Below, one piece after another: positions 9,431 through 60,300 of a stretch of DNA of 64,000 nt. Each line of letters starts with the position of its first letter. The first letter of the stretch is position 1. The notes under the pieces were generated by a model. It did not search any database and was not told where the DNA came from. It saw nothing but the letters and a program-made list of their open reading frames with translations. Source of the stretch: Agromyces atrinae (GTDB lineage: Bacteria > Actinomycetota > Actinomycetes > Actinomycetales > Microbacteriaceae); assembly GCF_013407835.1 (NCBI RefSeq), contig NZ_JACCBI010000001.1:1240001-1304000 (forward strand), read 5' to 3'. Made by a program: the position numbers and the translations under genes.

Positions 9431-10828
9431 GTGAGCAGCGGACGACAGCGGAACATCGCGGTCGTCCTCGCCGGCGGCGTCGGAACCCGCGTCGGTCTCG
9501 GCATCCCGAAGCAGCTCATCCGGATCGCCGGTAAGGCGATCGTCGAGCACACCATCGAGGTGCTGAGCGCCCACGAGCGCATCGACGAGGTCATCGTCAT
9601 GATGAACGCCGAGACGATCCACGAGCTCGACTACCTGAAGCTCGATCCTCGGTTCGAGAAGCTCACGGCCATCCTGCCGGGCGGTGCGACGCGCAACGAC
9701 ACCACCGAGCTCGCTCTCGCGGCTCTGCCCACCGAGGGCGACGAGTCGATCACCGTGCTGCTGCACGACGCCGTTCGCCCCTTCATCGACGAGCGCATCA
9801 TCAGCGACTGCATCGACGCGCTCGACACCTATGACGCGGTCGACACGGCGATCCCCTCGGCCGACACGATCATCGAGGTCGATTCCGATCGCCTCATCAC
9901 CGGCATCCCCCCACGGGCGGCGCTTCGCCGCGGCCAGACCCCGCAGGCGTTCCGCCTTCCCGTCATCCGCCGCGCCTACGCGCTCGCCCGCCAGGACCCC
10001 CAGTTCTCGGCGACGGATGACTGCGGCGTCGTCTTCACGTATCTGCCCGACGTCCCGATCTACGTAGTTGACGGTACGCCCGAGAACATGAAGATCACCG
10101 AGCCGCTCGACATCCACATCGCCGACAAGCTCTTCCAGCTGCAGTCGGCCGAGCTCGCGGGCACCGACGCCACTCCCCTGCCCGATCTGACCGGTTCGAA
10201 CATCGTCGTCTTCGGCGGGAGCTCGGGGATCGGCGCAAGCGTCGCCGAACTCGCGCGTGCGGCGGGCGCGACCGTGCACGTGTTCAGCCGCAGCGCGACC
10301 GGAACGGATGTCACGAAGCGGAAGGCCATCCGCGCGGCTCTCGAACTCGCCGAGCGCGACGGGCCGATCGACCACATCGTCGTGACGGCCGGGCTGCTCT
10401 CGCGTTCACCGCTCGCCGACGCCGACCCCGCCGAGCTCCGCAAGATGCTCGAGGTCAACCTCATGGCCCCCGTGAAGATCTCCCAGGAGGCCTACCCCGC
10501 GTTGCACCGCTCCGGCGGCAACCTCGTCTTCTTCACGTCGAGCTCCTACACGCGGGGCCGCGCGTCGTACAGCATGTACTCGGCGACGAAGGCCGCCGTG
10601 GTGAACCTCACGCAGGCACTCGCCGACGAGTGGGGCGACGACGGCATCCGCGTGAACTGCATCAACCCCGAGCGCACGGAGACCCCGATGAGGCAGAAGG
10701 CCTTCGGCGACGAGCCGAGCGACACCCTGCTGGCGGCGAGCAGTGTGGCGCGGGCGACGCTCCGCGTGCTCGACAGCCCCGTCACGGGTCAGGTCATCGA
10801 CGTGCGGCGCGATCACCGCGCCGGCTGA
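9431..10828 (+). CDS. Bifunctional cytidylyltransferase / short-chain reductase (CDP-ribitol synthase-like)
   Basis: A 465-residue fusion. Residues 8-240 are an IspD/TarI-type cytidylyltransferase, with VVLAGGVGTRVG (11-22), PKQL (26-29) and a DAVRP loop (113-117). Residues 253-465 are a short-chain dehydrogenase with NAD(P) motif GGSSGIG (262-268) and catalytic Y383-x-x-x-K387 preceded by Ser 370-372. The architecture is that of Haemophilus Bcs1, which reduces ribulose-5-phosphate to ribitol-5-phosphate and makes CDP-ribitol; human ISPD has the same layout with a degenerate second domain. Here both sites look intact. IspD of isoprenoid synthesis is a single domain, so that role is unlikely. 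GTG start with a strong ribosome-binding site. Its stop abuts the stop of the next, convergent gene. A LicD-family gene, a possible user of CDP-ribitol, lies 0.2 kb away. Confidence 0.85.
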   Translation: MSSGRQRNIAVVLAGGVGTRVGLGIPKQLIRIAGKAIVEHTIEVLSAHERIDEVIVMMNAETIHELDYLKLDPRFEKLTAILPGGATRNDTTELALAALPTEGDESITVLLHDAVRPFIDERIISDCIDALDTYDAVDTAIPSADTIIEVDSDRLITGIPPRAALRRGQTPQAFRLPVIRRAYALARQDPQFSATDDCGVVFTYLPDVPIYVVDGTPENMKITEPLDIHIADKLFQLQSAELAGTDATPLPDLTGSNIVVFGGSSGIGASVAELARAAGATVHVFSRSATGTDVTKRKAIRAALELAERDGPIDHIVVTAGLLSRSPLADADPAELRKMLEVNLMAPVKISQEAYPALHRSGGNLVFFTSSSYTRGRASYSMYSATKAAVVNLTQALADEWGDDGIRVNCINPERTETPMRQKAFGDEPSDTLLAASSVARATLRVLDSPVTGQVIDVRRDHRAG

Positions 10829-11038
10829 TCAGCTGTCGCGGCTGAGGCGGTCGACGACGAGGTCGTAGATCTCGGCGATGCGCTGCGAATCGCGACGCAG
10901 TTCGTCGATCTCGCGACGCAACTGCTCGTTCTCGCGGCTGAGCCGGCGCACCTCCGTCGTCAGGCGCTGCCGCGAGTAGAGTCGCGTGTCCTTCGCCTCG
11001 GAGATCTTGCGGCTGATGCCGTCGAGGGGCTTCGTCAT
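10829..11038 (-). CDS. Small coiled-coil protein (69 residues), function unknown
   Basis: A charged, almost fully helical protein. Residues 20-65 show heptad spacing of Leu/Val/Ile (LTTEVRRLSRENEQLRREI), predicting a parallel coiled coil. No signal peptide or membrane segment. Its ATG overlaps the stop of the upstream LicD-methyltransferase gene by four bases (ATGA), so the two are translationally coupled and the small protein is probably a scaffold or oligomerisation partner of a glycan enzyme. Small coiled-coil proteins of this kind recur beside glycosyltransferase genes in actinobacteria. I cannot assign a function. Confidence 0.7.
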   Translation of the reverse strand: MTKPLDGISRKISEAKDTRLYSRQRLTTEVRRLSRENEQLRREIDELRRDSQRIAEIYDLVVDRLSRDS

Positions 11039-12630
11039 CGATTCGGCCCTTCGTGTTCGTCGGTGTTCGTCGCGGTATCGCTCCGGCGCAGGAGCACGGT
11101 CGCCATGGTGCGCGTTCCGTGCAGGTCGCGCACCGGGGCGGCGGCGATCAGTTCACAGACTATCCCGAAGCGCGCGGCCTCTTCTTCGACCCAGTCGAGG
11201 GGCAGGTGCCACGACGACGGGTCCTCGTGGCGCAGCCAGCGCGCCTCGTCGGTCGGGAACGACGCCCAGGCGAAGCCGCCGTGACGCAGCGCCTGTCGCA
11301 GCAGGAGGAAGATGTTGGCCCGGCCGTCGAGGCCGATGCTGTGCAGCACGTTCGACAGCAGCAGGTGAACCGGCGCACCGGCGGCGAACGACCGCACGTC
11401 GACGGCGAGGTCGAGCACGTCGCGTCGATCGACGAAGTTGATGCGCCGGTAGTCGACCCGTCCTCCCGCGAGACGAGCGCGGTGCAGGGCCGCGCCGCTG
11501 AAGTCCGCCGCGATCACGTGGTGGCCCCGGGCCGCGAGCTCGCGACTGATCTCGCCCCGCCCGCACCCGAGGTCGACGACGACGGATGACGCGGGCAGAC
11601 GTGCCGCGAGCCCCTCGGCGTCAGCGGTGACGGGAGCGACGATCTCGCCCGATTCGACGGCGTCGTCCCAGAAGGTGCGGAACTGGTCGAAGACCCCGAA
11701 CCAGTTCTCGAATCGGCGGGTCGTCGCGCGCGGAACGTGGAAGTGGAAGGCGGGGTCGGGCTCGCGCCATGAGGCGCCGTAGCAGAGCGCGAGCCATGCG
11801 GCGGGGTTCGCGACGGAGGGGAAGGCGGTGCCGGCGATGTCGACCTCGCCGAACGGGAAGATGTCGCTCTCGGCGAGCATGCCTCTCATCGCGAACGGCT
11901 GGTTGTAGACGCCGTCCTTGTGGAAGCCCGTGAAGATGTCGACGTAGTGGCTGAGGGTTCCGTCGTCGGAGTGAAAAGGGACCTGCACATGAGCCGTGCT
12001 GTGCCGGATCGGCGCGTAGCCCGCCGCCTCGAGGTCGCGGCAGAGGGCGTAGCAGTGCACGGCGAGGTCGGCGGGAGAATCGGCATCGAGGTGCACGGCG
12101 AGATCGAAGTCGTCGTCGTGCGGCAGGAGGTCACCCGACCGGATGGCACCGAGCAGGCTCCCGCTCGTGACGACGACGGCCCAGCCCGCGGCCTGCAGGA
12201 CGTCGACGATGCTCCGCCCGTCGGCGATCAGTCGGTCGTGCACGCTCGAATCGCTCGCCGAACGGGCGAGTCTGCCCCACTTCGTGAGCATCAGCGGCTC
12301 GCCGCGATCGTTGACGAGTGAGATCGGTTCGTCGAGGGCGCCGATCTGCACGGCACCCGATGCGATGACGTCATCGCCGTCGCTGCGCCGCACGCCGAGC
12401 TCACCGCTCCCGACGAGCCGCTCGGCGAGCGGACGGGGCCACGCGAGATAGCTCGTCCCGTTGCGGCGAGGCGTGGGCGCGTAGGTCGACCAGATGCGGC
12501 GGCCGTCGAGCAGAATGTCGATGGAATCGCCCGGCTCGATGAGGGTGCTCGCGAACGTCACTCCGGAATGATCGGCCGCAATCGATCCGATCGGGAGGCG
12601 TCCGGCCCCCTTCGTTCGGAGTGCTGGCAT
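11035..12630 (-). CDS. LicD-family phosphotransferase fused to a SAM methyltransferase
   Basis: A 531-residue fusion. Residues 1-105 look like a beta-rich N-terminal domain. Residues 130-290 are LicD-like, with GSLLGAIRSG (157-166) and HDDDFDLAV (171-179) matching the conserved nucleotidyltransferase-fold core in which Asp residues bind metal. LicD relatives transfer phosphocholine, and the related fukutin/FKRP transfer ribitol-5-phosphate from CDP-ribitol. Residues 345-531 are a Rossmann methyltransferase (VVDLGCGRGE, 351-360). The neighbour at 9431 should make a CDP-alditol, so this enzyme may add ribitol-phosphate and methylate the glycan or alditol; that is inference. A TAGGCT box ends 6 bases before the ATG, overlapping the upstream gene's stop, and there is no ribosome-binding site, which suggests a leaderless internal promoter. 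Confidence 0.8.
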   Translation of the reverse strand: MPALRTKGAGRLPIGSIAADHSGVTFASTLIEPGDSIDILLDGRRIWSTYAPTPRRNGTSYLAWPRPLAERLVGSGELGVRRSDGDDVIASGAVQIGALDEPISLVNDRGEPLMLTKWGRLARSASDSSVHDRLIADGRSIVDVLQAAGWAVVVTSGSLLGAIRSGDLLPHDDDFDLAVHLDADSPADLAVHCYALCRDLEAAGYAPIRHSTAHVQVPFHSDDGTLSHYVDIFTGFHKDGVYNQPFAMRGMLAESDIFPFGEVDIAGTAFPSVANPAAWLALCYGASWREPDPAFHFHVPRATTRRFENWFGVFDQFRTFWDDAVESGEIVAPVTADAEGLAARLPASSVVVDLGCGRGEISRELAARGHHVIAADFSGAALHRARLAGGRVDYRRINFVDRRDVLDLAVDVRSFAAGAPVHLLLSNVLHSIGLDGRANIFLLLRQALRHGGFAWASFPTDEARWLRHEDPSSWHLPLDWVEEEAARFGIVCELIAAAPVRDLHGTRTMATVLLRRSDTATNTDEHEGPNR

Positions 12631-13337: not shown

Positions 13338-14642
13338 ATGACACCTGCGCACCGACGCCTCGCCGTGCGCGCGTTCTCGGTCCTCCTCTTCTTCACGGTG
13401 CTCGCCGGACAGTTCTGGCGCAACCTGCTCGGGTGGTGGGGGTTCGGGGTCATCGCCGGGCTGCTGACCATCGGCGCGGTCGTCCTGCTCGTCCGCGAGA
13501 AGCCGGAGTGGTCGTGGCGGCGCTCCCCCAAGGGCGTGGCCGCGTTCCTCATCGTCGCCGCGCTGTCGATCGCGTGGTCGCACTACCCGGCCGCGAGCGC
13601 ACTCGGAGTGGGCCTGACGGTCGCCACCACCATCGCCGCGGTCTTCGTCGGACTGTGCCTCAGCTGGGCCGAGTTCCTCCGCGCACTCGGCAACGCCCTG
13701 CGGTGGATCCTCGGGCTCTCGCTCCTCTTCGAACTCGGCGTGGCACTCGTCGTGCGCGGGCCGCTCCTGCCGAACTTCGTCTCGTACGAGGGCGAGAAGA
13801 TCCCCATGGCGTTCTACTGGTCGCGGGGGCTCCTCTTCGACGGCGGACCGATCGAGGGGATCGTCGCGAGTCGGAACCTCCTCGGCTTCATCGCCCTGCT
13901 CGCCCTCATCGTGTTCGGCATCCAGCTCGCTGCGAAGACCGTGCAGCGTCGGTGGGGCATCACCTGGCTCGTGATCGCCGCCGTGAGCTTCGTGCTCACG
14001 CGTTCGGCGACCGTGACACTGGCGGCGGTCGTCGTGCTCGCGGCGCTCGGGTTCGCCCTGTGGGCGCGTCACCGCGGCCCCCGGCGTCGGGGCGTCGTCT
14101 ATCTGACCGCGGGTGCGGCCCTCGTGGCATCCATCGCCGCACTGACCCTCGGCTGGAACCTCCTGCTCTCGATCTTCGGCAAGAGCGACGACCTGACCGG
14201 CCGATTCGACATCTGGGCGGCCGTCAGCGGGCTCGCTTCCGAGCGGCCCCTCGCCGGGTGGGGCTGGATCGGCTACTGGGCCCCCTGGGTCGATCCGTTC
14301 GACTCGCTCGCCGAGCGGAAGGGCGTCCTCTACCTCCAGGCTCACAACGCTTGGCTCGACGTCTGGTTCCAGCTCGGAATCATCGGACTCGTCGTCTTCG
14401 CCGCGATCGTCATCCCCGCCCTCTGGCGCTCCTGGTTCCTGGCGGTCGACACCGCCTACGACGGCCGCGGGGCGGCATTGCCGCCGCGCGCGAGCGCCCT
14501 GCTCCCCCTCCTCGTCCTCGCCGCGCTCATCGCCCAGAGCCTCGCCGAGAGCCGCATCCTCGTCGAGGGCGGCTGGGTGCTCCTCGTCGCCGTCGCGTTC
14601 CTCACGAAGCGACGGCAGCTGAGCGGAGAGGCGATGCCCTAG
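13338..14642 (+). CDS. O-antigen ligase/polymerase (Wzy/WaaL superfamily) membrane protein
   Basis: A 434-residue protein with about ten to twelve membrane segments. The large periplasm-side loop and C-terminal signature are those of the Wzy_C/O-antigen-ligase family: SRNLLGFIALLALIVFG (about 176-192), TGRFDIWAAV (about 288-297) and HNAWLDVWFQLGIIGLVVF (about 337-355). Such proteins polymerise undecaprenyl-linked repeat units or ligate them to an acceptor outside the membrane. A similar protein follows after 4 bases, so the pair is co-transcribed; one may be polymerase and the other ligase. Translation probably starts on a leaderless mRNA. Confidence 0.85.
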   Translation: MTPAHRRLAVRAFSVLLFFTVLAGQFWRNLLGWWGFGVIAGLLTIGAVVLLVREKPEWSWRRSPKGVAAFLIVAALSIAWSHYPAASALGVGLTVATTIAAVFVGLCLSWAEFLRALGNALRWILGLSLLFELGVALVVRGPLLPNFVSYEGEKIPMAFYWSRGLLFDGGPIEGIVASRNLLGFIALLALIVFGIQLAAKTVQRRWGITWLVIAAVSFVLTRSATVTLAAVVVLAALGFALWARHRGPRRRGVVYLTAGAALVASIAALTLGWNLLLSIFGKSDDLTGRFDIWAAVSGLASERPLAGWGWIGYWAPWVDPFDSLAERKGVLYLQAHNAWLDVWFQLGIIGLVVFAAIVIPALWRSWFLAVDTAYDGRGAALPPRASALLPLLVLAALIAQSLAESRILVEGGWVLLVAVAFLTKRRQLSGEAMP

Positions 14643-14646
14643 ACGC

Positions 14647-15942
14647 ATGAGCGATCGGTCTCCCCTCCGCCTGCCCGGCGCCCTCCTCGAACTCCTCGAA
14701 TCGGCGCGCTTCACACACGTGCTGACCGTCGTCGCCATCGGTGTCGCGTTCTCGACTCACCTGATCCGCGGCCTCGCGGGCTGGCCGGCGCTCATCGCGA
14801 TCGTGAGCGGACTCGTCGTGCTCGCGGCCGCGCAAATGTGGCTGCGGCGCGACCAGCTCGAGTGGTCCGGAGCCCTGCCGATCTCGGTCGTGCTCTTCGC
14901 GGGGTGGGCAGCGCTGTCGGTCTTCTGGTCGGAGACGACCTTCATCTCGGCGGGCCGCATCGGCTACCTCCTGGCCTTCGGCGCGCTCGGCTTCTTCATC
15001 GCCGTCACCCGCGACACCATCCAGATCGTGCGGCCCGTCGGCGACGTGCTCCGCCTGCTCCTCCTGCTCTCGATCGTGCTCGAGATCGTCTCGGGTCTGC
15101 TCATCGATCAGCCGATCCCGTTCCTCGGCATCGAGGGCGACCTCGCCACCCTCGGCCCGCTGCAGGGCGTCTTCGGCACCCGCAACGAACTCGGCTTCGC
15201 CGCGCTCATCGCCCTCATCACGTTCTCGATCGAGACGGCGACGCGCTCGATCCCGCGGCCGCTCGGCCGGGCATCCCTCGTCCTCGCCGCCGCCCTGCTG
15301 CTGCTGTCGCGCTCCCCCGTCGCGATCGGCATCGTCGCGATCGTCGCGGTGGCCGCACTCGCGCTCTTCGGAATCCGCCGCGTTCCCGCGGCGTCCCGCT
15401 GGATCGCCCAGGTCTCGCTCCTCAGCGTCATCCTCGTCGGCGGCCTCATCGCGTGGCTCGCGCGGGCACGAGTGATCGACCTGCTGAACGCGGGCAGCGA
15501 GTTCGAGGTGCGCCTGCAGCTGTGGCAGACGATGGACCGCTTCGCCCCGCCCGACCCGCTGCTCGGCTGGGGCTTCGTCGGCACGTGGCCGACGTCGGTT
15601 CCGTACATGCTCATCGACATCGCGACGGGGCGCGCGAACGCGACGGGCCTGAACGCCTTCGTCGACGTCACCTACCAGCTCGGCTACGTCGGAGTGGTCG
15701 GCTTCGTGGTTCTCGTCGGTCTCGCCCTCGTGCGCTCGTGGCTGCTCGCCTCGACCAAACGCAGCATCGTCTACGTGTGGACCGCCCTCGTCCTCGTCGC
15801 CCTCGCGACGGTGTCGCTCCTCGAGAGCACGACGATCTTCGACCTCGGGTGGATGCTGCTCGTCATCTGCGCGATCAAGGCCTCGCGAGACATGAGCTGG
15901 CGCGACGCCCTGCGCGTGCCGCCGCCCGCTCCGCGCGCCTGA
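14647..15942 (+). CDS. Second O-antigen ligase/polymerase (Wzy/WaaL superfamily) protein
   Basis: A 431-residue polytopic membrane protein paralogous in layout to the one just upstream: GTRNELGFAALIALITFS (about 177-194), EVRLQLWQTMDRF (about 286-298) and a C-terminal NAFVDVTYQLGYVGVVGF block. The Asn-x-Asp-x5-G pattern replaces the HNxWL of its neighbour. It is expected to act on lipid-linked glycans at the outer membrane face. With two flippases in the locus, two such enzymes would fit two separate repeat-unit polymers, or a polymerase plus ligase pair for one polymer. ATG chosen because upstream sequence is occupied by the preceding stop. Confidence 0.85.
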   Translation: MSDRSPLRLPGALLELLESARFTHVLTVVAIGVAFSTHLIRGLAGWPALIAIVSGLVVLAAAQMWLRRDQLEWSGALPISVVLFAGWAALSVFWSETTFISAGRIGYLLAFGALGFFIAVTRDTIQIVRPVGDVLRLLLLLSIVLEIVSGLLIDQPIPFLGIEGDLATLGPLQGVFGTRNELGFAALIALITFSIETATRSIPRPLGRASLVLAAALLLLSRSPVAIGIVAIVAVAALALFGIRRVPAASRWIAQVSLLSVILVGGLIAWLARARVIDLLNAGSEFEVRLQLWQTMDRFAPPDPLLGWGFVGTWPTSVPYMLIDIATGRANATGLNAFVDVTYQLGYVGVVGFVVLVGLALVRSWLLASTKRSIVYVWTALVLVALATVSLLESTTIFDLGWMLLVICAIKASRDMSWRDALRVPPPAPRA

Positions 15943-16924: not shown

Positions 16925-21423
<4,499 letters not shown>

Positions 21424-26844: not shown

Positions 26845-27708
26845 TCAGGAGTCGAGGAGCTGCTCCAGGTAAGTGCCGTAGCCGCTCTTGACGAGCGGGC
26901 GGGCGAGTTCGCGGAGCTCGGCGTCGTCGATCCAGCCGGCGCGCCAGGCGATCTCTTCGATGCAGCCGATCTTGAAGCCCTGGCGCTCCTCGATGACGCG
27001 CACGTAGTCGCCGGCCTGCATCATCGACGTGAACGTTCCCGTGTCGAGCCACGCCGTGCCGCGGTCGAGCACCTGGACGCTCAAGCGCCCCTCGTGCAGG
27101 TAGCGCTCGTTGACGGTCGAGATCTCGAGCTCGCCGCGTGCGCTCGGTTCGATCGTCTTCGCGATCTCGACGACCGTGTTGTCGTAGAAGTAGAGACCCG
27201 GCACGGCGTAGTTGCTCTTCGGCACGACGGGCTTCTCTTCGATCGAGAGCACGGTGCCGTCGTCGTCGAACTCGACGACGCCGTAGTCGCGCGGGTTCGC
27301 CACGTGGTACGCGAAGATGCGCGCGCCGTCGATGTCGGTGTTCGTGCGGAGCGCGGTGCCGAGGCCCGCGCCGTGGAAGATGTTGTCGCCGAGCACGAGG
27401 GCGACCGACTCGTCGCCGATGAATTCCTCGCCGATGATGAAGGCCTGCGCGAGGCCGTCGGGCGACGGCTGCTCGGCGTACTCGAGACGGATGCCGAGCT
27501 GCGAGCCGTCACCGAGCAGGGCGCGGAACTGCGCGTTGTACTCAGGCGTCGTGATGATGAGGATCTCGTTGATGCCCGCCATCATGAGCGTCGAGAGCGG
27601 GTAGTAGATCATGGGCTTGTCGAAGATCGGCATGAGCTGCTTCGAGATGCCCTTGGTGATCGGCCACAGGCGCGTGCCCGATCCGCCGGCGAGGATGATT
27701 CCGCGCAT
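26845..27708 (-). CDS. rmlA: Glucose-1-phosphate thymidylyltransferase
   Basis: A 287-residue enzyme making dTDP-glucose from dTTP and glucose-1-phosphate, first step to dTDP-L-rhamnose. Nucleotide motif GGSGTRLWP (8-16), [18 protein letters not shown] (about 21-38), the [11 protein letters not shown] segment (about 103-113) and [20 protein letters not shown] (about 157-176) are all intact. Length matches short-form RmlA. It follows rmlC on the same strand after 3 bases, so they form one mRNA divergent from rmlB-rmlD. Confidence 0.97.
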
Positions 27709-27711
27709 GGG

Positions 27712-28323
27712 TCAGAGTCCCTTCGTCGCGATGCTCGCGTAGTGATCGCGGGCGGCTTCCCACGTCGGCAGGAGACCCGACTCGAGCGCCTCGGCGAGCG
27801 TCGGAGCCTCGGCGTCCTTCGGCGAGAGGAGCGCCTCCCCCGCCTCGGCGGGGATGCGCAGGCCGATCTCGGGGTCGAGCGGGTTGATGCCGTGCTCGCG
27901 CTCGGGGCGGAACACGTCGGAGCAGAGGTACGTCACGGTCGCGTCATCCGTCAGCGCGACGAAGGCGTGGCCGATGCCCTCGCCCACGTAGATGGCGCGG
28001 CGGTCGACGTCGTCGAGCAGGACCGAGTCCCACTTCCCGAACGTCGGCGAGCCGACGCGGATGTCGATCGCGAAGTCGAGCACGGCGCCGTGGGCGGCCA
28101 TGACGTACTTGGCCTGTCCGCCGGGGAGATCGGCGAAGTGGATGCCGCGGAGCACCCCGCGCTTCGAGACCGAGAGATTCGCCTGCTTGAGGTCGAGGGC
28201 GTGGCCGACGACGTCTTCGAGGGCGTCGAATCGGTACCACTCGGCGAAGAGGCCTCGGTCGTCGCCGAACTGCTTCGGCGTGATCTCGTAGGCGTCGGGT
28301 ACGGAGAGTTCGCGAATCTGCAC
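27712..28323 (-). CDS. rmlC: dTDP-4-dehydrorhamnose 3,5-epimerase
   Basis: A 203-residue cupin epimerase acting on dTDP-4-keto-6-deoxyglucose. The motif RGVLRGIHFADLPGGQAK holds the active-site His, and VLDFAIDIRVGSPTFGKW and VGEGIGHAFVALTDDA are typical of the family. The GTG start at 28323 lies 7 bases downstream of a TAGGCT box, so translation may begin on a leaderless mRNA. It is first gene of the leftward rmlC-rmlA unit. Confidence 0.95.
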   Translation of the reverse strand: MQIRELSVPDAYEITPKQFGDDRGLFAEWYRFDALEDVVGHALDLKQANLSVSKRGVLRGIHFADLPGGQAKYVMAAHGAVLDFAIDIRVGSPTFGKWDSVLLDDVDRRAIYVGEGIGHAFVALTDDATVTYLCSDVFRPEREHGINPLDPEIGLRIPAEAGEALLSPKDAEAPTLAEALESGLLPTWEAARDHYASIATKGL

Positions 28324-29411
<1,088 letters not shown>

Positions 29412-29415
29412 CGCC

Positions 29416-30267
29416 ATGCGTTTCCTCATCACCGGAGCCGGTGGAATGCTCGGGCGCGATCTCCAGACCGCGCTCGCGGGCCGCGACGTGACGGCAGCGA
29501 CGCGTGCCGACCTCGACATCACCGATGAGGCTGCGGTCATCGCCGCCGTCGCCGGTCACGACGTCGTCATCAACGCGGCGGCCTACACGGCCGTCGACGA
29601 CGCCGAGACCGACGAAGACGCCGCCTACGCGCTCAACGCGCTCGGCCCGCGGAACCTCGCGCGCGGTGCGGCAGCCGCCGGGGCGCGTCTCGTGCAGATC
29701 TCGACCGACTACGTCTTCGACGGACGCGGCACGAGCCCGTACGCCGAGGATGCCGCGCGAGCACCGATCTCGGCCTACGGGCGCACCAAGGCGGCGGGCG
29801 AGGAGTTCGTGAGCGAGCTGCTGCCGGACGCCTCGTACATCGTGCGCACGGCCTGGCTCTACGGCGAGCACGGCAACAACTTCGCCCGCACGATGCGCAC
29901 GCTCGCCGCTAACCGCGACACGTGGTCGGTCGTCGACGACCAGCGCGGTCAGCCGACATGGACGGTCGACCTCGCCGACGCCGTCATCCGTCTCGTCGAT
30001 GCCGACGCACCGGCGGGCATCTACCACGGCACCTCGTCGGGCGAGACGACGTGGTTCGGCTTCGCGCGGGCCATCCTCGAGACCGCGGGTCTCGACCCCG
30101 AACGCATCACACCGACCGACAGCTCGGCGTTCCAGCGCCCCGCTCCCCGACCCGACTACTCGGTTCTCGCACACGACACGTGGGCGGCAGCGGGTCTCTC
30201 GCCGATCCGCGATTGGCGTGAGGCGCTCGACGTCGCCGCCGCGCGCGGCATCATCGACCCTCGATGA
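29416..30267 (+). CDS. rmlD: dTDP-4-dehydrorhamnose reductase
   Basis: A 283-residue SDR making dTDP-L-rhamnose, last step of the pathway. It has the N-terminal NAD(P) motif GAGGMLGRDL (about 7-16), DVVINAAAYTAVDDAE (about 50-65), QISTDYVFDGRGTSPY (about 94-109), the catalytic YGRTKAAGE and RTAWLYGEHG (about 138-147). It overlaps the start of the downstream flippase by four bases, which links rhamnose supply to export of a rhamnose-containing unit. Confidence 0.96.
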   Translation: MRFLITGAGGMLGRDLQTALAGRDVTAATRADLDITDEAAVIAAVAGHDVVINAAAYTAVDDAETDEDAAYALNALGPRNLARGAAAAGARLVQISTDYVFDGRGTSPYAEDAARAPISAYGRTKAAGEEFVSELLPDASYIVRTAWLYGEHGNNFARTMRTLAANRDTWSVVDDQRGQPTWTVDLADAVIRLVDADAPAGIYHGTSSGETTWFGFARAILETAGLDPERITPTDSSAFQRPAPRPDYSVLAHDTWAAAGLSPIRDWREALDVAAARGIIDPR

Positions 30268-57310: not shown

Positions 57311-57324
57311 GGCACGAGCCTCAG
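57307..57324. terminator. Perfect hairpin spanning both stop codons of convergent genes
   Basis: CTGAGGC (57307-57313) pairs with GCCTCAG (57318-57324) around ACGA. The left arm contains the TGA of the rightward gene and the right arm the TGA of the leftward ATPase gene. It may end transcription both ways. Confidence 0.5.
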
Positions 57325-58067
57325 CGCTTGTTCATCGCCTCGATCGCCTCGTCGACCGGCCCGTCGAAGATGAGCTTGCCCTTCTTCAGGACGATGCCTC
57401 GCGTGCAGATCTCCTTGATCATCGACATGTTGTGACTCACGACGAGCATCGTCTTGCCCTGATCGGCGAGCTCGAGGATCTTCGTCTTGCACTTCTCGCG
57501 GAACGGGGCATCGCCGACCGAGAGGATCTCGTCGACGAGCAGGATGTCGAGCTCGACGTGGATCGCGACGGAGAACGCCAGGCGCAGGAACATGCCCGAG
57601 GAGTAGTGCTTGACCTCCTGGTCGATGAACTCGCCGATCTCGGAGAACGCGACGATCTCGTCGAAGCGCGCCTCGGTCTCGGCCCGGTTCATGCCGAGGA
57701 TCGCGGCGTTGAGGTAGACGTTCTCGCGACCCGAGAGATCGGGGTGGAAGCCCGCGCCGACCTCGATGAGACCCGCGAGTCGCCCGCGCGTGAGCACGCG
57801 GCCCGCGTCGGGTTCGAGCACGCCCGAGATGAGCTTCAGGAGCGTCGACTTGCCCGACCCGTTGAGGCCGAGGACGGCGACGGACTCGCCCTCGCCGACG
57901 TGGAACTCGACGCCGTCGAGCGCCTGGAACGTCGAGGAGCCCGACTTCTTGCGCTGCACCCACGCGACGAACGTCTCTTTGAGCGAGTGCGTGTGGCGGA
58001 GGAGGAAGTCCTTCCGGACGTCGTCGACGACGATGCTCGGCCGTGTTTCGACCACGTTCGCTCCCAT
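57321..58067 (-). CDS. Wzt-type ABC transporter ATPase for wall glycan export
   Basis: A 248-residue ATPase: Walker A GLNGSGKST (67-75), signature YSSGMFLRL (155-163, the SSGM form of polysaccharide exporters), Walker B DILLVDE (174-180) and the switch His in VVSHNMSMIKEICTRGIVL. This is the TagH/RfbE type; there is no C-terminal glycan-recognition domain, like the mycobacterial galactan exporter ATPase (Rv3781) and unlike long Wzt proteins. It pairs with the permease gene upstream (one-base overlap) and should energise export of finished chains linked to decaprenyl or undecaprenyl phosphate. Confidence 0.93.
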   Translation of the reverse strand: MGANVVETRPSIVVDDVRKDFLLRHTHSLKETFVAWVQRKKSGSSTFQALDGVEFHVGEGESVAVLGLNGSGKSTLLKLISGVLEPDAGRVLTRGRLAGLIEVGAGFHPDLSGRENVYLNAAILGMNRAETEARFDEIVAFSEIGEFIDQEVKHYSSGMFLRLAFSVAIHVELDILLVDEILSVGDAPFREKCKTKILELADQGKTMLVVSHNMSMIKEICTRGIVLKKGKLIFDGPVDEAIEAMNKR

Positions 58068-58927
58068 CAGAGGTCCTGCGCGAATCGACGCTCGAAGCGG
58101 CGGAACACGACCTGGCCGATGACGACCAGGGTGAGCGCGACGACGATGGACTGCAGCACGTAGCGGATGAAGTCGGGCGGAAGCTCGGCCGACCCCGAGA
58201 TCGTGGGCTCCCAGAACGCGAGGTGGAAGAGCTCGACGGCGGGAGCGAGCGGGTTCAGGAAGTAGATCTCGAGCGCCCAGCCCGGGAGGGCCGCTGCGAC
58301 CATCGTCCACGTGTAGAGCACGGGGGCGCTCCACGTCGAGAGCATGCGGATGATCTCGACGAAGCTCGCCGCATCGCGGAAGCGCACGTTGATCGCACCG
58401 AAGAACAGCCCGACGCCGAGGGCGACGAGCATCGTGATAGCGAGGGCGAGCAGGAAGGCGCCGAGCGCGGCGAAGCTCGGCACCCAGCCGATGAGGATGC
58501 AGACGACGAGCAGGATCGCGACCTGCGGCAGGAAGTGCACGAAGGCCACGATGATCGCCGAGATGGGGAAGAGCTCGCGCGGCAGGTAGATCTTCTTGAC
58601 GAGCGCGCGGTTGTCGACGATCGAGTTCGTCGCGTTGCCGAAGGCCTCGTTGAAGAGGTTGACGACGACGACGCCCGCGAAGAGGTACACGGGGAAGTTC
58701 TCGACGTTGCGGTGGATCTGGAGGATGATGCCCATCACCAGGTAGTAGACGAGGAACTGCGCCGCGGGCTTCACGTACGACCAGGTCCAGCCGAGCACCG
58801 AGTTGCGGTACCGCGTCGAGATGCCCTTCCGCACGAGCAGGCGCAGCAGGTAGTGCCACCGGAAGACATCGAGGATGCCGCGGCCGCGGCCCGGCGTCTG
58901 GAATCCGGTCAGGTCGAGGTCCGTCAT
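58067..58927 (-). CDS. Wzm-type ABC transporter permease for wall glycan export
   Basis: A 286-residue ABC-2 permease with six membrane helices. YRNSVLGWTWSYVKPAAQFL (about 41-60) is the conserved RYRxSxLGxxWxxxxP motif after the amphipathic N-terminal helix of TagG/Wzm proteins, and VKKIYLPRELFPISAIIVAF (about 108-127) is the next landmark. It forms the channel for the Wzt ATPase downstream. Its ATG overlaps the LCP gene stop by four bases. Proximity to GlfT1-like and LCP genes suggests galactofuranan as cargo. Confidence 0.93.
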   Translation of the reverse strand: MTDLDLTGFQTPGRGRGILDVFRWHYLLRLLVRKGISTRYRNSVLGWTWSYVKPAAQFLVYYLVMGIILQIHRNVENFPVYLFAGVVVVNLFNEAFGNATNSIVDNRALVKKIYLPRELFPISAIIVAFVHFLPQVAILLVVCILIGWVPSFAALGAFLLALAITMLVALGVGLFFGAINVRFRDAASFVEIIRMLSTWSAPVLYTWTMVAAALPGWALEIYFLNPLAPAVELFHLAFWEPTISGSAELPPDFIRYVLQSIVVALTLVVIGQVVFRRFERRFAQDL

Positions 58928-60300
58928 CCTTCGCCCTCGGTCGGTTCGGGCGTCGGCGGGTACACCGCGGGCTCGATGAGCGATCGGATGTAGTCCCAGT
59001 CGGGATCCATGGGATCGACGCCGTTGGCGGGAACGAGTTCGACGTTCGTGATGGGAAGCTCCTTGGTCTTCAGTGCGAGGTTGACGAAGTAGCCGAGCAT
59101 GCCCTGGGGCACGTCGGTCTTCACCACGTCGGCTCCCGCGTTCGCGACGTCCTGGAACTTCGTGAGGACGTTCGCGGGGGTGAACTGCCGGAGCACCGCC
59201 TCCTGCAGGATGCGCTGGCGAGCCATGCGCTCGTAGTCGCCGCCGGCGACTCCGTACCGCGCACGACCGTACCAGAGCGCGTAGTACCCGGTGAGGTGCT
59301 GCTGGCCGGGCTCGATCCAGCCGTCGACGCCGTCGTTGTTCTCGTCGCCGCCGATCGGGATGCGTGTCTCGACGTTGATGTCGACGCCGCCGAGCGCGTC
59401 GATGAGCGACTCGAAGCCGTACATGTCGATGAGCACGTAGTACTGGATGGTGAGGCCCGTGATGCCCTCGGCGGCATCGCGCATGCCCTCGATGCCGGGC
59501 TCGGAGCCCTCGGCGACGGCGTTCGGGTACATCTCGGGGCTCTTCAGCTCGACCTCGGTGTAGATCGAGTTGAGGAGGCACACGTCGACCTCGCATCCGT
59601 CGATCGCGCCGTAGCCCTCGGGGTAGACGGCGGCGAGCGGCGAGTCGGCGGGGAACGGCACGTCTTCGAGGTCGCGCGGCAGACCGATCATGACGGCCTG
59701 GCCCGTCTCGGCGTCGATCGACACGACCGACATGCTGTCGGGACGCATGCCCTCGCGGTCGGGCCCCGCGTCACCGCCGAGCAGGAGGATGTTGTACTTG
59801 CCGTCGACGGGAGGCTCGCTCGGACCGGCGACGAAGACGCTCGAGAGGAATCCGCTCGTCGTGATCGCGAGGTAGGACCCCCACACCGATCCGCCCGCGA
59901 GCAGGCCGACGACGCCGATCGAGAGCACGGCGAGCCAGCCGCGCGCTTTCGGCGCCGTCTTGACGAGCCGGATGAGCCGGAGCGTGTCGAGCGTCAGCAC
60001 GACCCAGAGCACCGCGTAGAAGAGCAGCACGAGGGCCGCGAGCCACAGGGTGATCGTCGTGCTCGCGAGCGTGTAGAGAACCGTGGGCCAGAGGATCGAG
60101 ACGACGATCGCGACGACGACGAGGGCCCACAGCACGAGGGTGGCACCGAGACCGAATCGGCCGAGCTTGCGGTCGCCCGCGAGCACCTGCACGGAACCCG
60201 GGATGAGCACGTTGAGGACGACGAGCCACCACGCTCGCCTCGTCATGACGGGACGCGACGAGGTGTCGGGGAAGCGGATCGGGCTGGCGGCGAGGCTCAT
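58924..60300 (-). CDS. LytR-CpsA-Psr (LCP) glycan ligase with four-helix N-terminal membrane domain
   Basis: A 458-residue protein. The LCP domain (about 165-450) has [20 protein letters not shown] (169-188), [20 protein letters not shown] (191-210, with the conserved Arg) and [12 protein letters not shown], all facing outside. LCP enzymes transfer lipid-linked glycans to peptidoglycan; Lcp1 does this for mycobacterial arabinogalactan. Instead of the usual single anchor the N-terminus has four membrane segments (about 22-41, 50-71, 79-105, 120-146). The C-terminal tail is Pro/Glu-rich. ATG overlaps the purE stop by four bases; the Wzm gene overlaps its own stop by four. So synthesis, export and attachment of one polymer appear coupled. 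Confidence 0.9.

Follow-up and report, generated by a model that had tools for sequence, protein, structure and literature searches.

The question raised by this locus is what two adjoining genes of Agromyces atrinae, one for a fused cytidylyltransferase-reductase (the synthase) and one for a LicD domain fused to a methyltransferase (LicD-MT), would make together. They lie in a stretch of 64,000 nucleotides (the window; NCBI RefSeq assembly GCF_013407835.1, contig NZ_JACCBI010000001.1, positions 1,240,001 to 1,304,000), which is part of a 3.65-Mb genome contained in a single contig. An earlier note on this DNA had described both fusions and interpreted them as a bacterial counterpart of the CDP-ribitol and fukutin/FKRP system. 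Both open reading frames (ORFs) are present, and their G+C content by codon position is that expected of real genes. That interpretation is supported in part, namely by the placement of the synthase in the TarI branch, its recurrence beside LicD-MT, the FKRP-like core of the latter and the lack of a strong PF04464 polymerase; membership of the FKRP/fukutin group is not supported. A third gene, encoding a small coiled-coil protein, is an additional part of the system, overlooked by the earlier note. We give an even chance to the reading that LicD-MT and the coil protein add and methylate a phosphate unit derived from a CDP-alditol, in a manner most resembling capping of the WbdD type.

Fused cytidylyltransferase-reductase

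The two domains of the synthase matched PF01128 (IspD; residues 9-233, 161.1 bits) and PF00106 (adh_short; residues 257-425, 120.2 bits). The YxxxK motif pointed out earlier at residues 383-387 reads YSATK, and a glycine-rich GGSSGIG is also present at 262. In a protein search (8000 candidates were scored in each search of this kind) 6758 of the 8000 candidates passed; the 120 matches listed span 93-100% of the query, and the named proteins among them are mostly "bifunctional cytidylyltransferase/SDR" or short-chain dehydrogenase/reductase (SDR) proteins.

Comparison with the PDB placed four TarI chains at the top (116-118 bits), while the 24 other distinct chains listed reached at most 99 bits. 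Two of the four (4jis and 6xhp) were deposited as ribitol-5-phosphate enzymes. The other two (3f1c and 2vsh), deposited under the names of methylerythritol phosphate (MEP) enzymes, cluster with them (100/99), and we take them to be TarI. Chain 4cvh, presumably human ISPD, scored just 71.5 bits. In a tree of 43 cytidylyltransferase domains, the 19 fused domains fell together with the TarI chains (four rows) and two further rows of TarI-like sequences (97/91); 13 IspD-type rows stood apart (100/97), as did five stand-alone cytidylyltransferases (100/99), with the warning that the long branches of the stand-alone and IspD rows may join falsely. This tree covers the synthases of 19 of 23 genomes: those of L067 (truncated), G177, L064 and L065 are absent, the last two having been missed by the gene caller used, and L093 was removed because of its long branch.

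The window enzyme has the motifs HDAVRP, GQTPQ, TDDC and NMKIT, compared with HDAAR, V/MQTPQ, TDDA and mostly FKIT or FKVT in the printed IspD rows. Since GQTPQ, the V of HDxVRP and the N before KIT are shared by the stand-alone cytidylyltransferases, these motifs are not diagnostic of TarI, and therefore solely the tree and the scores argue for this assignment. Two curated NCBIfam models were not reached (ribitol-5-phosphate enzyme, 160.8 of 166; IspD, 169.2 of 181.3), and that scan left ribitol versus MEP undecided. The candidate function of an MEP-pathway IspD was rejected on the basis of the separate tree clade and a second, separate IspD gene in the genome (C1:3410737, 194 bits). By tree and PDB scores the enzyme is of the TarI branch and not an MEP IspD, which supports the earlier interpretation. 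The most likely product of the synthase is an activated sugar alcohol, CDP-ribitol or another CDP-pentitol; whether the pentitol is ribitol or arabitol is beyond the reach of sequence.

LicD-methyltransferase fusion

LicD-MT is composed of (i) an N-terminal domain of its own (residues ~1-115), (ii) a LicD domain of the nucleotidyltransferase fold (~118-300) and (iii) a class I S-adenosylmethionine (SAM) methyltransferase (~340-515), the borders being placed by eye from the alignment. The LicD core (residues 153-179) scored 22.1 bits against PF04991 (23.8 in a six-frame search), and the methyltransferase matched PF13649 at residues 351-452 (35.2 bits). The most recognizable motifs are HDDDFD from 171, DIFTGFH from 231 and the SAM-binding VDLGCGRG from 352.

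A protein search returned 34 proteins, comprising the window's own and 33 relatives of 30-44% identity, most of which are labeled merely "methyltransferase" by their sources. A second search, seeded with the LicD-MT alignment, gave 31 proteins and nothing new. Save for a few short ones, the relatives align across both the LicD and the methyltransferase domains, which rules out an accidental fusion. The sole match of a genome-wide LicD-MT scan covered the methyltransferase part alone and was judged spurious.

FKRP was the best PDB match of the LicD-MT family profile (49.3 bits, E=2.5e-12, chain residues 281-436), followed by methyltransferases. The match comprises only the catalytic core (~321-476 of the full-length protein); in this sequence comparison the zinc-finger loop (288-318) and the stem domain of FKRP fall outside it. 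The DDDFD core described earlier was found at residues 172-176, and D172, D174, D176 and D231 align with D360, D362, D364 and D416 of FKRP, residues whose mutation demonstrates that they are needed (PMC6965139). The three motifs of the fold (hG[GS], [DE]h[DE]h and h[DE]h) correspond to S156-G157-S158, D174-F-D176 and D231, respectively. The first of these, aligned with G344-G345-S346 of FKRP, has a non-hydrophobic residue in its first position and reads GGT in most relatives. D231 is invariant in the 34-row alignment; G157, D172, D174 and D176 are nearly so.

The homology searches that the earlier note had proposed for the two proteins point to a TarI-type synthase and to FKRP as the closest PDB match of LicD-MT. 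The term "fukutin/FKRP counterpart" appears to fit the chemistry, in view of the FKRP-like core with its four aspartates, and not the membership, given the unmatched zinc-finger loop and stem and the low score of the presumed ISPD chain.

Linkage of the synthase and LicD-MT

In a family set of 299 genomes, where LicD-MT was counted above 400 bits and the synthase at E <= 1e-60, LicD-MT was present in 24 genomes (26 copies) and the fused synthase in 23. The LicD-MT scan had yielded 86 genomes over its limit, 62 of them solely with matches below 57 bits. One stop is located inside the synthase matches of G001, G148 and G177 and inside the LicD-MT of G068; all were kept, the G068 stop as X. In G177, whose region lies outside the fetched set, only residues 34-296 of the synthase are matched.

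Both genes were found in 13 genomes, against 1.85 expected (P = 1e-10, with genomes taken as independent). They are less than 400 bases apart in nine of the 13, and at most 12 kb apart in all of them. Two of the six genomes of the window's genus contain both genes and four contain neither, at the limits used. The LicD-MT of one same-genus genome, G079, is identical, once its ends are trimmed, to part of P0021, a protein assigned to Agromyces intestinalis. In G584, which represents another family, the synthase, LicD-MT and coil genes form an operon, each overlapping the next by 4 bases, and in G261 and G040 the synthase and LicD-MT genes are on the same strand, separated by 47-53 bases.

Coiled-coil protein

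The start of the coil ORF overlaps the stop of LicD-MT by 4 bases (ATGA), and its own stop abuts that of the synthase, so that the methyltransferase gene upstream, LicD-MT and the coil gene, all on the minus strand, face the plus-strand synthase stop to stop. The predicted protein resembles DUF6752 weakly, below the cut-off of that family. A heptad pattern can be seen: hydrophobic residues make up 57-86% of the a/d positions in the best register, which was selected as such, versus 17-36% elsewhere.

We built a model from 14 coil ORFs and scanned with it all ORFs of at least 40 aa in 33 regions and the window. The family set gave 26 matches, one for each LicD-MT copy (26/26), of which 14 had trained the model and 12 had not. 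Six are within the ORF of LicD-MT, 19 are on the same strand no more than 201 bases from the end of the LicD-MT match, and one is distant (G068; 1,552 bases, opposite strand). In nine control regions with the synthase and without LicD-MT, four of which are shortened by contig ends, there was no match (0/9). An independent class-wide set comprised 27 LicD-MT copies above 360 bits outside the window's genus, nine lower matches being left aside. It yielded exactly 27 coil matches: one in the same ORF, 18 on the same strand within 360 bases, one on the other strand within 144 bases, four at 1.2-1.3 kb downstream and three upstream. These scores are weak (19-44 bits) and single cases may be due to chance; the one-to-one placement is nevertheless striking.

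The coil is fused to LicD-MT in four of the 34 proteins listed (P0018, P0021, P0030 and P0033). Its N-terminus carries a net positive charge in 13 of 14 proteins and is amphipathic (p < 0.05) in seven of 14, several of which are near-identical; this charged and amphipathic character is suggestive only.

Donor genes near LicD-MT in other genomes

The fused synthase is the obvious candidate for the donor source of LicD-MT in this genome. In three more genomes a stand-alone IspD/TarI-type gene is located near LicD-MT, adjoining it in G068 and at a distance of ~4 kb in both G199 and G244. In the latter two, as well as in G064 and G212 loci, the stand-alone gene is placed beside a 260-aa reductase-like protein, with PF01370 in three of the four (three were checked). 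A cytidylyltransferase with such a reductase is the type of pair reported for CDP-glucitol/mannitol in C. jejuni (PMC10918830). In G064 and G212 (regions L073, L077 and L080) LicD-MT is present as two paralogues, and cytidylyltransferases of both kinds occur. One LicD-MT of G212 adjoins the fused synthase, and the other, which falls in the G199/G244 clade, lies ~4 kb from the stand-alone gene; here the paralogues are paired with the kind of cytidylyltransferase by both place and clade.

TagD exceeded its cut-off in the same eight of the 24 family genomes that have no TarI-type gene beside LicD-MT and in none of the 16 others. The LicD-MT copies of these eight form one clade (100/100), which may represent a single event, and contain WRTPIP versus a PDP form in the other 18 copies, a clade marker that may bear on the donor. 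Two of the eight (G121 and G208) have a TarI-like gene elsewhere in the genome. No genome of the class set (0/21) had TagD over the cut-off, and 14 had a match of 109-165 bits. At four class-set loci (G343, G390, G421 and G449) a PF01467 nucleotidyltransferase gene is directly upstream of LicD-MT; two PF01467 enzymes that were compared scored equally for glycerol-3-phosphate cytidylyltransferase and heptose adenylyltransferase, which leaves the nucleotide ambiguous. Overall, these data accord best with a LicD-MT family whose nucleotide-linked donor is changeable.

A second PF01128 gene (160-165 bits) was observed in frames of 508-802 aa in G361, G449, G507, G582 and G665, perhaps representing further fused synthases. 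In G507 a divergent match to LicD-MT, of 170 bits, lies ~1.7 kb away from this gene.

Polymerases and other users of the donor

The only PF04464 match in the genome is weak (21.5 bits, or 22.7 with frame neighbors) and lies ~1.08 Mb from the synthase; the earlier remark that no TarL/TagF is visible can thus be extended to the whole genome. Because no strong PF04464 protein was found, LicD-MT is the only clear candidate user of the donor here. Among the 13 genomes with both genes, a PF04464 match above 100 bits lies no more than 12 kb from the synthase in seven and elsewhere in two (G040 and G261), and strong matches are absent from four (G000, G079, G102 and G273; best 21-30 bits). Eight of the 10 genomes with the synthase and without LicD-MT have PF04464 within 10 kb (32-43 bits; cut-off 22.1); of the other two, G029 has it elsewhere and G177 (88% complete) has none. 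A weakly PF04464-like protein of 431 aa was observed at L007:1045-2340(+) (genome C1:165996), and ORFs of about this length, likewise matching weakly, are present in many of the 34 genomes searched.

A glycosyltransferase with TarS_linker (29.3 bits, cut-off 27) is encoded beside the fused synthase in L061 and has cluster mates in L059, L063 and L073. TarS_linker glycosyltransferases were seen near TarI/IspD-type cytidylyltransferases at L061:7190-9148(-) and L080:9808-11337(-). Such neighbors hint at glycosylated alditol-phosphate polymers in the L061 and L080 genomes.

Features of the window

The features of the locus and of its surroundings are presented in Table 1. The stand-alone methyltransferase is a probable operon mate of LicD-MT, and its cluster has members from three regions, including the window. 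The presence of a GlfT2-type gene suggests galactofuranan as the glycan, which may also contain rhamnose, judging from the dTDP-rhamnose-type genes. Proteins of the Wzy_C-like cluster recur in 14 mapped regions including the window. A Wzm-like cluster (Pfam was run on one member) is represented in seven of the 24 fetched family regions with LicD-MT, in none of the nine controls and in one of 25 class-set regions.

Table 1. Coordinates of the predicted features in the window
Feature	Position	Strand	Basis or remark
Fused cytidylyltransferase-SDR synthase, 465 aa	9431-10828	+	ORF, Pfam, tree and motifs
Cytidylyltransferase domain of synthase, residues 9-233	9455-10129	+	PF01128
SDR reductase domain of synthase, residues 257-425	10199-10705	+	PF00106
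Coiled-coil partner of LicD-MT, 69 aa	10829-11038	-	ORF and coil model
LicD-methyltransferase fusion (LicD-MT), 531 aa	11035-12630	-	ORF, Pfam and alignment
DDDFD metal-binding core, LicD-MT residues 172-176	12103-12117	-	alignment to FKRP
Stand-alone class I SAM methyltransferase, 215 aa	12640-13287	-	directly upstream of LicD-MT, same strand
Two tandem O-antigen ligase/polymerase-like proteins	13338-14642, 14647-15942	+	Wzy_C 68.7; 22.8 bits (cut-off 31.7)
GlfT2-type galactofuranosyltransferase	16925-18913	-	Pfam
UDP-galactopyranose mutase	18910-20100	-	start not fixed
dTDP-rhamnose-type genes: nucleotidyltransferase, 3,5-epimerase, 4,6-dehydratase-like, RmlD	26845-30267		
Exporter and LytR-CpsA-Psr protein, other half of wall-glycan cluster	57321-60300	-	
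ABC-type polysaccharide exporter ATPase	57321-58859 (ORF)	-	PF00005, 65.9 bits; start not fixed
Exporter membrane subunit	58223-58849 (in overlapping ORF)		PF01061 (ABC-2); start not fixed

Comparison with known systems

For the combination of methyltransferase, phospho-transfer and coil, the nearest model, by analogy, is the WbdD terminator. WbdD is described as phosphorylating the chain end and methylating this phosphate, which halts growth (PMC3482155), and a coil as a typical feature by which terminators of this kind are recognized in pathways with an ABC exporter (PMC11231755). Like LicD-MT, WbdD of E. coli O9a and ORF6-O7 of Klebsiella O7 unite a methyltransferase, a phosphate-adding module and a coiled coil. 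Their module, however, is a kinase using ATP, whereas LicD-MT, which gave no Pfam match to a kinase family, has a LicD domain instead, presumably with a CDP donor, and its coil is short and mostly encoded by a separate gene. WbdD is among the PDB matches of the LicD-MT profile, far from the best.

FKRP and fukutin share with LicD-MT the nucleotidyltransferase-fold core and the equivalents of D360/D362/D364/D416; LicD-MT differs in being fused to a methyltransferase and having a coil partner, and its acceptor is presumably a bacterial glycan. A reductase forms part of the window's donor enzyme, which resembles TarI more closely than human ISPD. The wall teichoic acid pathway of TarI/TarJ and TarL/TagF has the TarI-type cytidylyltransferase in common with this locus, but the reductase here is a fused SDR and the genome has no strong PF04464 polymerase. 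Cps7C of Actinobacillus pleuropneumoniae and Mf1 of Mycoplasma fermentans share the LicD family, a CDP donor and an FKRP-like core. The parts of the sources consulted mention no methyltransferase domain for either; Cps7C has a TPR domain, and the donors differ. With Cps7C, a bacterial LicD polyol-phosphate transferase was already known.

The CDP-ribitol synthase of H. influenzae, Acs1/Bcs1, is likewise a fusion of cytidylyltransferase and reductase. Likened to it by domain make-up, the window synthase represents an actinobacterial branch linked to LicD-MT. Fused CDP-ribitol synthases are not new, since papers on the H. influenzae enzyme are cited, by title, in PMC10918830. A literature search, by titles and abstract openings, revealed nothing on a system of LicD with methyltransferase and ribitol or with a coiled coil. 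The literature consulted further included PMC11666461, PMC11982090 and PMC3196553.

Proposed mechanism and its alternatives

The families, residues and linkage given above are computed; from them we infer the substrates, the order of steps and the capping role. The SDR domain would reduce a pentulose phosphate, most likely D-ribulose-5-phosphate, and the TarI-type domain would couple the resulting pentitol phosphate to CMP, yielding CDP-ribitol or its epimer CDP-arabitol, as family, tree and motifs suggest. The LicD domain, with metal ions held by D172/D174/D176/D231, may then move the alditol-5-phosphate onto a wall glycan, for which the FKRP-like core and the linkage argue, and the fused methyltransferase would methylate the added unit or its neighborhood. 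The coil protein might dimerize LicD-MT or tie it to the glycan-making complex. The whole set could act as a WbdD-like cap or chain terminator, in which the LicD domain replaces the kinase. More tentatively, LicD, methyltransferase and coil may constitute a new class of Gram-positive chain terminators, forming methylated ribitol- or arabitol-phosphate caps at a length set by the coil, where the cap would vary with the nucleotidyltransferase of the lineage (a fused TarI-SDR enzyme, an IspD/TarI-like enzyme encoded on its own and accompanied by a PF01370 reductase, or one of the PF01467/TagD type).

Several observations weigh against this scheme. The coil is short (69 aa), the window's LicD domain is below the PF04991 cut-off of 22.6 bits (of seven LicD-MT proteins scanned, two are above it, at 26.4 and 28.1, and five below), the synthase and LicD-MT genes are convergent in the window, and the co-occurrence P values ignore shared ancestry. 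The exporter is ~45 kb from LicD-MT, next to which are a Wzy_C protein and a second one that scores lower, under the cut-off. As regards the donor, a TarI-type gene is missing beside LicD-MT in eight of the 24 family genomes with LicD-MT, 26 of 27 class-set copies have no TarI/IspD-type match in the fetched region, and 15 of 21 class-set genomes have a single PF01128 gene (six have a second one somewhere). Because so many copies lack a TarI-type gene nearby, CDP-ribitol cannot be the universal donor of LicD-MT. In G064 both LicD-MT copies are in one stretch, and the copy of the stand-alone clade is closer to the fused synthase (0.26 kb) than to the stand-alone gene (2.2 kb), so that this genome does not separate the two pairings.

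The same components might serve decoration, with LicD-MT adding (methylated) alditol-phosphate side groups along galactofuranan and the coil being a dimerization tag only. A LicD enzyme, Mf1, is reported to add phosphocholine to a glycolipid, and the Wzy_C proteins (68.7; 22.8 of 31.7) are beside the operon, the Wzy pathway needing no such terminator. However, a fused methyltransferase and a coil at or near every examined copy exceed the needs of a decorator, and the coil proteins described in the literature consulted are terminators; we therefore regard decoration as rather unlikely. Formation of the backbone itself by the LicD domain, either as a poly(alditol phosphate) polymerase or in alternation with a glycosyltransferase, in place of TagF/TarL, would accord with Cps7C, a LicD protein reported to be a polyol-phosphate transferase on polyol-phosphate acceptors, and with the four of 13 genomes with both genes that lack a strong PF04464 protein. 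It is improbable, in that seven of these 13 hold such a protein close to the synthase, so that LicD-MT is no simple replacement, and methylation of the new end by the fused methyltransferase would stop extension.

Other alternatives concern the donor. CDP-arabitol, formed if the SDR reduces the other face of ribulose-5-phosphate or another pentulose phosphate, is compatible with WbdD-like capping and is possible, if doubtful: SDR stereochemistry is unreadable from sequence, but the cytidylyltransferase groups with TarI, and the TarS_linker glycosyltransferase that neighbors the fused synthase of L061 and has mates in L059, L063 and L073 also speaks for ribitol. Agromyces cerinus, which has both genes (P0007 and P0044), reportedly contains a poly(arabitol phosphate) teichoic acid (Shashkov 1995); a literature search on arabitol in A. 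cerinus found nothing, and "arabitol phosphate" was absent among the matches listed. It is also conceivable that the two genes are unrelated neighbors in a big wall-polysaccharide cluster and that LicD-MT transfers another nucleotide-linked group, e.g. glycerol phosphate. The convergent orientation in the window, the coincidence of TagD and of WRTPIP rather than the PDP form with the eight genomes lacking a TarI-type neighbor, and the PF01467 genes directly upstream of LicD-MT at four class-set loci are in line with this. Against them stand the co-occurrence and adjacency of the two genes, the G584 operon and the close same-strand pairs of G261 and G040, which make mere neighborhood quite unlikely.

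If the proposed capping by LicD-MT and its coil partner is true, these genes would represent a route by which the wall glycans of Gram-positive bacteria are capped and sized. They would also include relatives, in bacteria, of an enzyme involved in human muscular dystrophy, and a donor and transferase pair would be named for proteins that are at present mostly called just "methyltransferase".

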